A stretch of DNA of 64,000 nt from a virus. Below are positions 54,664 to 61,072 of this stretch, piece by piece (within the stretch, counting starts at the first letter, position 1; the number at the start of each line of letters is the position of its first letter). A program made the position numbers and the translations under genes. Below the pieces are notes generated by a model. That model saw nothing but the letters and a program-made list of their open reading frames with translations. It did not search any database and had not been told where the DNA came from. The stretch lies in IMG/VR virus record IMGVR_UViG_3300010397_000007, positions 1-64,000 of that record; one strand, given 5' to 3'.

Positions 54664-55385
54664 ATCTTACGCCTACTCGACGATGAATGTGACGCTAGCG
54701 TGACGCTAAATTGTTGATCTTATCGATCACTCTCAAGCCCCTGTGGGACGACTAAATTGGTCGTATATCGGGAAATGGCCTTCGTGTTTCTACGTTAATT
54801 CCAATTTCCCCTGGCGGGGTAGAGGGAACTTCGCGTGGAAAACGACCGGGGGCCTATCCTGCCCCTCCCCTACTATCGAAAAGCGAAGGCGCGGCGAAGG
54901 ATGCAAGGCCGGCGGCGGGCGGCGGCGGGGCGCACCGGCGGGGCTCCGAGTGGGCGGCCATTACCCTCAGACTTTCCCAAGCTTCTCATAGTCCAATAGA
55001 ATCATAGCTTTACAGGCGAGTAACTTAGGTTGCGTACCTAAGGTACCGGGGAAACCGGCTCGATTCCGGCTCGATTCCAGCCCGATTAAACGTGGGGAAT
55101 TATCGTGGGGAATTTTGAGGTGCTATGCGACAATTACCGCAGGTTAACAGTGTTAAGTGAGGCGACGTTCCATTAGCATCTCTAATCATTTTTCACTAAT
55201 GTATGAATGAAATTAATGTCTACTAAATTGGTAGACATTCTTCTGGGCAGAGATGTAGTGCAATTCGAGTGCCATCTATTTTTCGTTAGCTTGACGTTTT
55301 AACTTGACGTCTAGTCAACGACTAATTAACGTAGGTGCAAGACCAGACCGAACTAAACGCGGCTGGCAAAAGGAGAATTAAACAA
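54664..55385. promoter_or_regulatory. control region between divergent operons
   Basis: About 720 bases with no credible gene. Contents: two 11-bp repeats GTGACGCTAGC/GTGACGCTAAA (54689-54710); a very GC-rich patch (54890-54965); inverted repeat CTTAGGT/ACCTAAG (55024-55042); tandem CCGGCTCGATT (55056-55077) and CGTGGGGAATT (55091-55115) repeats; a 9-bp inverted repeat AATGTCTAC/GTAGACATT (55215-55239); and the rightward promoter at 55304. It looks like an operator/promoter region, possibly also a recombination or replication site. Confidence 0.5.
55304..55332 (+). promoter_or_regulatory. rightward promoter of the ribozyme-containing operon
   Basis: TTGACG (55304-55309), 17 bp, TAACGT (55327-55332). 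A further TTGACGTTTTAAC sits just upstream at 55291. The predicted start near 55339 gives a leader of about 47 nt for the gene at 55386. Confidence 0.65.
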
Positions 55386-56252
55386 ATGTCATATCTACAC
55401 GATTTCACAGTAGGCGCAAGAGCTAACAGGATTCAGACTCCCCTTACCCTTGACATGGTTCGCCAGTATGCACCCTCTGCTTTCGCCACTCACGCTCACG
55501 AATCGAGATCTGATCGTTACACCTACATTCCAACGATCAACGTTATTGAGGGGATGATTAAGGCGGGTTTTCAACCCTTCTCAGCGTCTCAGTCAAGGTC
55601 ACGCATTGAGGGGAAAGCAGAGTTTACCAAGCATATGATCCGCTTTCGCCATATGGACTTGACCTCTCCAATGGTAGTTGGGGACATTATTCCCGAAGTT
55701 GTGCTCGTTAACTCTCACGATGGCACGAGCGCTTACAAGCTCATTGCTGGCATGTTCCGCCTAGTCTGTTCGAACGGTCTCATGGTGGCGGACTCAACGA
55801 CGGCGAGCGTCTCAGTCATGCACAAGGGGAACATTGTGGCGGATGTCATTGACGCGTCGAATGGGATCATTACTAGCTCACAGAAAGCTTTGAATGCCGC
55901 TAGCGCGTGGTCTAATCTGCAACTGACAGACGGTGAGCAGAGTGCTTTTGCTGAGGCTGCTCATACGGTGAGGTTTGCTGATGCTGAAGGGAAAGTTACG
56001 ACGCCAATCACTGCGGCTCAATTGCTTCGTCCACGGCGCTCTGATGATAATGGGGCTGATCTTTGGAAAACTTTTAATCGCGTGCAAGAGAATGTTATTA
56101 AAGGCGGATTGCATGGTATACAACGTGATGCCAATGGCCGCCGGTTACGCGCTGTCAGCACAAGGCAGGTTAAGGGAATCGATCAGGATGTGAAATTGAA
56201 TCGCGCCCTGTGGACTCTGGCGGAGCGTATGGCAGAGCTTAAGGCAGCGTAA
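55386..56252 (+). CDS. DUF932-family protein
   Basis: The ATG at 55386 has AAGGAG 10 nt upstream, better than the GTG at 55335. The 288-residue protein shows the DUF932 layout: YTYIPTINVIEGMIKAGFQP, RSRIEGKAEFTKHMIRFRHM, then VLVNSHDGTSAYKLIAGMFR and LVCSNGLMVAD. DUF932 proteins are frequent on plasmids and phages and have no settled function. The stop is 1 nt before the first hammerhead ribozyme. Confidence 0.75.
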   Translation: MSYLHDFTVGARANRIQTPLTLDMVRQYAPSAFATHAHESRSDRYTYIPTINVIEGMIKAGFQPFSASQSRSRIEGKAEFTKHMIRFRHMDLTSPMVVGDIIPEVVLVNSHDGTSAYKLIAGMFRLVCSNGLMVADSTTASVSVMHKGNIVADVIDASNGIITSSQKALNAASAWSNLQLTDGEQSAFAEAAHTVRFADAEGKVTTPITAAQLLRPRRSDDNGADLWKTFNRVQENVIKGGLHGIQRDANGRRLRAVSTRQVKGIDQDVKLNRALWTLAERMAELKAA

Positions 56253-56253
56253 A

Positions 56254-56309
56254 AGTCGAAACGTGGCCTAATTGCCACGTCTCAGCGTTAGGCGCTGACT
56301 GATGAGACT
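56254..56309 (+). ncRNA. type II hammerhead ribozyme 1
   Basis: All elements of a hammerhead are present and paired. Stem II is open (AGTC 56254-56257 with GACT 56306-56309). GAAA is at 56258-56261. Stem III is CGTGGC/GCCACG (56262-56267, 56274-56279) plus the A-U core pair, with loop CTAATT. The cleavage triplet GTC is at 56279-56281. Stem I is TCAGCG/CGCTGA (56282-56287, 56293-56298). The core CTGATGA is at 56299-56305. Cleavage is expected after C56281. The RNA fills the gap between the DUF932 stop and the Shine-Dalgarno (GGGAGG) of the next gene. Confidence 0.92.
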
Positions 56310-56325
56310 AAAGGGAGGTTTTCTG

Positions 56326-56577
56326 ATGACTAACTTTCAAAAGTTCTGCACAAGCTGTATCGATTGTGGGGGCTCGACGTCTAAGAGTTTCGCTCGGAGT
56401 AATGGCGGAAAGTGCAAGACTTGCGTTACGGGTGTTGAGCAACCGAAGCGCGGGCCAAAGTGTCCGCAGTGTGGGGCTCCAATCTCTGCTTACAAAGCAG
56501 CACACGGTTACGTGTGTGAGGGTTGCTTTCGTGACAATGATCCTGTTGGCTATGCCAATGAGCTTAGGGGATTCTAA
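56326..56577 (+). CDS. double zinc-ribbon protein flanked by hammerhead ribozymes
   Basis: The ATG at 56326 has GGGAGG 7 nt upstream. The 83-residue protein has CTSCIDCGG, CKTC, CPQCGAPIS and CEGC, enough for two zinc ribbons in tandem. It is basic in the middle. Both ends of its message are expected to be produced by self-cleavage, at 56281 and 56603. The role is unknown; nucleic-acid binding is plausible. Confidence 0.7.
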   Translation: MTNFQKFCTSCIDCGGSTSKSFARSNGGKCKTCVTGVEQPKRGPKCPQCGAPISAYKAAHGYVCEGCFRDNDPVGYANELRGF

Positions 56578-56631
56578 AGTCGAAACTCGGAGCAATCCGA
56601 GTCCTAGCATTACGTGCTAGCTGATGAGACT
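56578..56631 (+). ncRNA. type II hammerhead ribozyme 2
   Basis: Second complete hammerhead, beginning on the base after the zinc-protein stop. Stem II is AGTC (56578-56581) with GACT (56628-56631). GAAA is at 56582-56585. Stem III is CTCGGA/TCCGAG (56586-56591, 56596-56601) with a GCAA tetraloop. The triplet GTC is at 56601-56603. Stem I is CTAGCA/TGCTAG (56604-56609, 56615-56620). The core CTGATGA is at 56621-56627. The predicted cut is after C56603. The core is identical to ribozyme 1, while stems I and III differ and keep pairing. Confidence 0.92.
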
Positions 56632-56678
56632 AGATCTCCTAGATCATTTGAGAGACAATTTGAAAATGGAGTGCCAAT

Positions 56679-56798
56679 ATGCGCAAGATTGCAAAAGATG
56701 TCGCAAAGGATGAGCTTGATTCGCTCAAAGACCAATTGCACGCACTAGGATTCTCAAAACGTGCGATTAGTGCCGCGTTTAGGGAGGTGCAACTGTGA
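56679..56798 (+). CDS. 39-residue helical protein
   Basis: The frame from ATG 56679 has GGAG 7 nt upstream and encodes MRKIAKDVAKDELDSLKDQL, then GFSKRAISAAFREVQL. Its stop overlaps the next start (TGATG), so translation is probably coupled. The pattern is HTH-like but too short to call. Confidence 0.5.
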   Translation: MRKIAKDVAKDELDSLKDQLHALGFSKRAISAAFREVQL

Positions 56799-58351: not shown

Positions 58352-58456
58352 ATGAGATTTAACTTGACAACGGAACGAATGGGCGATATTTCTTATGTCG
58401 CCTTGAATGTATGGGCAATTTTGGCGCTGCTTTTAGTCGCCTACGTGCCGAAATGA
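58352..58456 (+). CDS. 34-residue membrane peptide
   Basis: The frame from ATG 58352 follows AGGAGA. Its C-terminal half is a TM helix (LNVWAILALLLVAYV). The stop overlaps the regulator start (ATGA), so the peptide probably serves as a leader or partner for it. Confidence 0.5.
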   Translation: MRFNLTTERMGDISYVALNVWAILALLLVAYVPK

Positions 58457-58845
58457 CATCCACCATGAGTAAACGCGAGCTTGACGTTCTTGAGGCGATC
58501 GGACAGGGAAGATCGAATGTTCAGATTGCTGAAGAGTTAAACATGACTATTGACACAGTCAACAAGCATATCAAGAGTCTCAAGGCAAAGACAGGGCGAA
58601 GGACGTTGATTGCCCTTGCTAATCATGTCAGGGGGGAGGAGTTTGAGCCGGCGCATCCTGCCCTCAGCCCTCGTGAGCAATGGATCGCCGCCCTCATAGT
58701 GGCTGATGGAACGAATAAGGAGATTGCGGAGGCTTCGAACATTAGCCCACAGACGGTTAAGAATCATCTGACCAATATGTTTAACAAGTTAGGGGTGTGG
58801 TCAAGGTTGGAGCTGGTGACGAGGTTGAGAACAACCAATAATTAA
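58453..58845 (+). CDS. regulator with two tandem LuxR-type HTH domains
   Basis: The 130-residue protein is almost only two GerE/LuxR helix-turn-helix domains: residues 5-58 (LDVLEAIGQGRSNVQIAEEL, TIDTVNKHIKSLKAKTGRR) and 70-126 (LSPREQWIAALIVADGTNKE, SPQTVKNHLTNMFNKLGV). No receiver or ligand domain is present. A tandem arrangement allows one monomer to bind two half-sites. It is a candidate phage gene-expression regulator. The ATG 58453 overlaps the upstream stop. Confidence 0.8.
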   Translation: MTSTMSKRELDVLEAIGQGRSNVQIAEELNMTIDTVNKHIKSLKAKTGRRTLIALANHVRGEEFEPAHPALSPREQWIAALIVADGTNKEIAEASNISPQTVKNHLTNMFNKLGVWSRLELVTRLRTTNN

Positions 58846-60646: not shown

Positions 60647-60659
60647 AAGCTTATCCCCA

Positions 60660-61072
60660 ATCCCCTTTAGTTAAGGGGAGGCAAGATTAGCAGAGGAGAA
60701 AGGACTTGACAAGAAGAAAATGTAGGTATAGGGGGTGGGGAAAAGCTGTATTACCAAAGTATTACGTCGAAAGGGCAAAAATTGATAGTGAACCGTTTCA
60801 ATAGTTTACGAAAGACGAACAAGCCATATTATAGATAGATTTTAGGGGAGGGAGGGTACTTTTTAGGTCAAATTGCCACCTATCCCACGTCCCCTCAATA
60901 TCTTAGGGGCAAAAACGCACTGGGATACTAATGAGACTAATCTCAAAAAAGGGGATTAGTATCCCACCCCTAAAACAAGAGCTAACTTATTGATTATATA
61001 TATATTAAATATAGAAAAGGACATCCATTCCCCCCTCCCTCCCCCCGCCCTGGCTAGGGATACTAATCAGGA
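60660..61072. promoter_or_regulatory. origin-like repeat region beside the RepA-like helicase
   Basis: No gene is visible. An 11-bp inverted repeat (GGGATACTAAT 60922-60932, ATTAGTATCCC 60955-60965) is joined by a third direct copy at 61057-61067. Between them lie a small GAGA/TCTC hairpin, an AT-rich tract (TTATTGATTATATATATATT, 60988-61007) and a C-rich run (61030-61049, G-tracts on the other strand). The minus-strand RepA-like gene ends inside the third copy's flank. Iterons, AT-rich segment and adjacent helicase are typical of replication origins. Confidence 0.5.

Follow-up and report, generated by a model that had tools for sequence, protein, structure and literature searches.

The 73-nt gap between a DUF932 gene and the small gene that follows it in an IMG/VR virus record was described in an initial annotation as holding a complete type II hammerhead ribozyme, which raises the questions of whether the element is genuine, how such elements are placed in other viruses, and what self-cleavage would do at this junction. 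The window (the whole stretch of DNA analyzed) comprised 64,000 nt, corresponding to bases 1-64000 of the 69,041-base record, which carries a terminase. The DUF932 identity of the upstream gene was confirmed by Pfam (PF06067, E 1.6e-47) and by phrog_12094 (E 4.8e-94). The junction contains the following features.

55335..56252, plus strand: DUF932 gene, GTG at 55335, homologue alignments starting at residue 18 (ATG 55386), stop UAA 56250-56252
56254..56309, plus strand: hammerhead A, type II, found by descriptor, covariance model, and minimum-energy fold
56281..56282, plus strand: predicted cleavage site A, after C56281 of GUC, from the hammerhead class
56313..56318, plus strand: Shine-Dalgarno sequence GGGAGG of the zinc-ribbon-like gene, from the sequence
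56326..56577, plus strand: gene for a zinc-ribbon-like protein of 83 aa with a ribozyme on each side, stop UAA 56575-56577
56578..56631, plus strand: hammerhead B, type II, beginning immediately past the stop codon of the zinc-ribbon-like gene
56603..56604, plus strand: predicted cleavage site B, after C56603 of GUC, from the hammerhead class
56679..56798, plus strand: short ORF of 39 codons downstream of hammerhead B, with GGAG at 56668-56671

The gap is filled as first described, the UAA being followed by one base, the ribozyme, the Shine-Dalgarno sequence, and AUG 56326. This AUG is most likely the start of the zinc-ribbon-like gene, and the start at 56302 given by the ORF caller falls inside CUGAUGA. 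Zinc-finger/ribbon matches of the 83-aa protein were weak and below the cut-off. The DNA of the ribozyme region had no match in annotated phages, and a terminase-based search for a close relative of this phage found none. Since the record encodes a terminase and the neighbors of such ribozymes are small, early-type genes, a phage early operon is a plausible setting. The same gene cluster encodes a small protein with two HTH domains of the LuxR/sigma-70 region 4 type (58411-58845), and a gap at 60647-61072 contains a strong hairpin (GGGATACTAATGAGACTAATCTC...GGGGATTAGTATCCC) with G-rich and C-rich runs nearby.

The invariant letters, the three stems, and the coordinates of copy A were all verified. 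The core consists of GAAA 56258-56261, GUC 56279-56281, and CUGAUGA 56299-56305, and is surrounded by a 4-bp stem II (AGUC 56254-56257 / GACU 56306-56309), stem III (CGUGGC 56262-56267 / GCCACG 56274-56279), and stem I (UCAGCG 56282-56287 / CGCUGA 56293-56298), the last capped by a U-UAG-G loop in which U.G forms a seventh pair. In minimum-energy folding, the 56 nt taken without flanks give the hammerhead structure (z -3.2). A second complete hammerhead, copy B at 56578-56631, had been missed; its stem III (CUCGGA/UCCGAG) and stem I (CUAGCA/UGCUAG) are both perfectly paired. The core and the AGUC/GACU of stem II are common to both copies; in stems I and III the sequences diverge, with full pairing kept in each. 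In both, stem II is open and stems I and III are closed by loops, which is the type II topology; this had been called the rarer one, a description that does not agree with the main text of PMC3088659, where all three types are reported to be equally frequent in bacteria. The two copies lie on the same strand and flank 56326-56577, forming an array of two around a phage gene. The tail of hammerhead B (56632-56660, CUAGAUCUCCUAGAUCA) can form a hairpin that competes with stem II.

An exact-core type II descriptor applied to the 64-kb window returned two sites only, A and B. The same two sites, and no others, were returned by a covariance model (R1) built from 42 copies, none of them from the window, with scores of 55.5 bits for A (E 6e-13) and 53.5 bits for B (E 2e-12), these E-values being rough. 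Viral contigs were searched using the pattern AGTCGAAA-N15..45-CTGATGAGACT, in which the sequence of stem II is fixed, and at least 119 stretches matched; bacterial and archaeal genomes totaling 257 Gb gave 25. The viral loci obtained are metagenomic contigs with mechanically called ORFs, and as a sample drawn with stem II fixed they are not random and yield counts that are lower bounds. Among the viral loci listed, 125 of 130 pattern occurrences could be parsed as hammerheads, with both closed stems at least 4 bp long in 121, and the exact-core descriptor added 52 further type II copies that differ from these in the sequence of stem II.

An alignment of 45 copies was used to assess covariation. 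Closed stems were required of the aligned copies, a mild selection because 125 of the 130 raw matches passed, and stem II is invariant in this alignment because it was fixed in the search pattern. All 585 scored pair cells held standard pairs, 156 of them changed on both sides, and the covariation score was 0.746, against 0.05-0.12 in slid controls, in which 25-41% were paired. In the copies with other stem II sequences, stem II varies with pairing kept, as their descriptor demands. Three helices with covariation thus surround the core, as in the hammerhead class, and the identification of a type II hammerhead at a phage gene junction is borne out by this covariation, by the independent covariance model, and by the second copy.

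A further regularity was found in copies with a 5-nt loop I, where the first base of the loop and the nucleotide preceding stem II were U/A in 41 distinct copies and A/U in 20, with no mixed combinations (Fisher p 1.6e-16, a value that ignores shared ancestry); this relation had not been selected for. The two bases are read as a putative tertiary pair that would dock stem I on stem II, for which novelty is not claimed, further type II contacts being listed in the supplement of PMC3088659. Copies with a stem I hairpin of 21-23 nt show the pseudoknot between loop I and the 3' tail described by Perreault et al., which is absent from A and B, with their 17-nt stem I hairpins and 5-nt loops; in the main text of PMC3088659 this pseudoknot is a majority feature of type II, not a universal one.

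Placement was analyzed in 166 copies among the matches listed, after removal of near-duplicates. Type II hammerheads of viral relatives usually adjoin the upstream stop codon directly: in 129 of the 166 copies an ORF of 40 or more codons terminates no more than 10 nt before GAAA, in 62 its stop codon overlaps the stem II strand, and in 35 a UAG stop draws its U from the nucleotide just ahead of stem II. Within the gap, abutment of the stop codon exceeded uniform placement, at 62 versus 35.1 +/- 3.7 of 76 copies. Downstream, a Shine-Dalgarno sequence and start codon lie within 80 nt in 91 of 121 copies listed, compared with 23% at random positions. The order of stop codon, ribozyme, Shine-Dalgarno sequence, and start codon is thus general among viral relatives. 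Arrays of three to seven copies occur in at least 16 loci, commonly spaced 200-500 nt apart, or about one ribozyme per gene or short gene block. Four loci (L081:1772-6064, L097:1055-3559, L110, and L041) carry five to seven type II hammerheads at about one per gene, and in several of these copies with a different stem II and tertiary subclass are adjacent.

Genes next to the ribozymes are mostly small and of no recognized family; those recognized encode ArdC-type antirestriction proteins, SAM lyase, RusA, GroES, and HNH and RecE-like nucleases, and no structural genes were found among the neighbor-gene matches listed. In one locus (L006:840-1124) a 50-aa gene preceded by a hammerhead is followed, directly past its stop codon, by a type-P5 twister (RF02684; Rfam 44.8 bits). 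Because this twister, of an unrelated fold, takes the same place between stop codon and Shine-Dalgarno sequence, it seems that the trait kept is cutting and not the hammerhead fold.

Self-cleavage was reported by Perreault et al. for 14 of 18 consensus hammerheads tested, and three prophage arrays cleaved in vitro, one of them also in E. coli (main text of PMC3088659); by analogy with these, A and B are likely to be active as self-cleaving RNAs. We infer that they are co-transcribed with their genes and cleave in the cell. On this basis A and B probably separate the cistrons of a polycistronic phage mRNA by cutting it. Each would fold on transcription and, starting at the stop codon of the preceding gene, would cut 26-28 nt further on, after its own GUC. 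The message on the 5' side would retain its stop codon and end in the stem III hairpin with a 2',3'-cyclic phosphate, and the one on the 3' side would carry a 5'-OH and the stem I hairpin ahead of its Shine-Dalgarno sequence and start codon, so that the zinc-ribbon gene would be released as its own mRNA. The purpose may be to allow stability or expression to be set separately for each cistron. The RNase III sites of T7-type early mRNA likewise provide intercistronic cuts in polycistronic early phage messages and leave hairpin 3' ends; there the cut is made by a host protein enzyme, whereas here the RNA would cut itself.

The close fit to the stop codon would also be expected if cutting were coupled to translation, with the ribosome that terminates at the abutting stop codon covering the stem II strand and GAAA, so that cutting would occur only without upstream translation or after termination. 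The overlap of stop codons with the ribozyme and the UAG stops completed by its AG point in this direction, as does the excess of abutment over uniform placement, but much of this abutment could result from compact phage gaps and the space needed for a Shine-Dalgarno sequence. Special pairing of the upstream coding sequence with the ribozyme was also absent, the probability of the hammerhead pairs over 114 copies being 0.667 with the real upstream context and 0.65-0.68 with swapped flanks, and we regard translation-coupled cutting as unlikely. The same comparison led us to reject the upstream coding sequence as a folding switch, a behavior predicted for copy A only, where the addition of about 20 nt of DUF932 coding sequence caused the predicted ensemble to refold away from stems I and II. 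This prediction, the 4-bp length of stem II, and the lack of ribozymes beside DUF932 and zinc-ribbon homologues of other phages (below) count against the cutting role.

Conservation at this junction bears on whether the ribozymes belong to the genes or move independently of them. No hammerhead follows the gene in five DUF932 relatives (87, 84, 78, 52, and 48% identity), R1 found none elsewhere in their records, and an Rfam scan of the gaps returned no ribozyme. The initial annotation had held that loss of the core in close relatives would count against it; absence after DUF932 is indeed the case in these five, but decay of a conserved element is not indicated, because the gap, with other hairpins in it, and the next genes differ as well, which shows gain or loss at the junction. 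A zinc-ribbon homologue in another locus (L162, 61%) lies between short gaps without ribozymes. A gene-specific element kept with the DUF932 or zinc-ribbon gene was therefore rejected, and the ribozymes, not being gene-bound, are gained and lost at junctions as a movable punctuation. Two of the hairpins after DUF932 (L124:5864-5910 and L125:4830-4880) are imperfect, share a UCGCAG apical loop and internal mismatches, and had no match in Rfam; a third, long hairpin past the DUF932 stop codon (L123:5867-5945) has a CUCCC loop that could pair with the downstream Shine-Dalgarno sequence GGGAG. A virus-classed contig (L127:2358-2661) carries RNase P RNA (85.4 bits, below the cut-off) and three tRNAs.

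Such mobility would also fit a selfish or recombination-borne cassette, in which a ribozyme-bracketed gene is transferred as a unit and cutting matters little to the phage. Ribozymes bracket the zinc-ribbon gene in the window and are missing at its homologue in L162, DUF932 relatives have other genes next to them, and the near identity of copies in L050 points to recent spread inside a single genome. Had one flank simply been duplicated, however, A and B would be alike along their whole length, and they are alike in the core and stem II only; the precise placement at stop codons and the covariation show selection on the folded RNA, and this explanation is judged quite improbable. An ordinary intercistronic hairpin, such as an RNase III site or terminator, that mimics a hammerhead by chance is highly improbable even though DUF932 relatives carry other hairpins in the same gap, since the exact core occurs twice, the descriptor gave no matches in 1.32 Mb of reversed viral-locus sequence, and a core-base control (GAAA to GAAT) matched 4 stretches of the viral contigs against at least 119, which exclude chance. 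A terminator was rejected at both copies, as neither is followed by a U tract and a terminator scan listed none at either.

A match of copy A to the Rfam type II family (RF02276), proposed earlier as a check, does exist, at 27.7 bits in a short-stretch search, but lies below the gathering cut-off of 37 bits, which is a database threshold and not a biological criterion; copy B had no match to RF02276, and the search at window scale returned none. The only site returned by RF02276 from the record itself (66992-67035) was discarded as chance-level, having neither exact-core nor R1 support. These results are attributed to insensitivity of the model, which at its gathering threshold recovered 13 of 101 descriptor-defined copies in 48 loci. 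The 51 copies with a short loop I, the subclass to which A and B belong, contributed 1 of these, and the 50 whose loop I is longer contributed 12.

Type II hammerheads in phages, several of them bracketing single genes, were published in 2011 (main text of PMC3088659), and the window is a further example of these known arrays. The two copies agree with the type II of Perreault et al. (RF02276) in CUGAUGA, GAAA, and GUC, in the open stem II and closed stems I and III, and in bracketing genes; they differ in lacking the pseudoknot between loop I and the 3' tail, in a 5-nt U-NNN-G loop I, in an A on both sides of stem II, and in scoring below the Rfam cut-off. As in the Agrobacterium prophage triple hammerhead at ardA, which cleaves in E. 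coli (same main text), the ribozymes lie around small, early genes of an anti-host type, except that here the genes encode DUF932 and zinc-ribbon-like proteins. The main text of PMC3088659 makes no mention of stop-codon abutment, and in the open-licence papers searched we found no statement of the stop-codon placement statistics, of arrays with as many as seven copies, or of how large the Rfam blind spot is. The role of hammerheads in bacteria and phages was termed an open question in a 2017 review (PMC6155905).

Because most phage copies escape the public type II model, counts based on RF02276 are too low. The placement at stop codons, the arrays, and the exchange with a twister make an intercistronic cutting role directly testable. 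It is possible, and we suggest it only tentatively, that in many phages the stop codon is part of the ribozyme and couples termination to mRNA cutting, in operons largely invisible to Rfam models; if this is true, operons in which almost every gene is followed by a ribozyme would be 'self-dicing' polycistronic messages.
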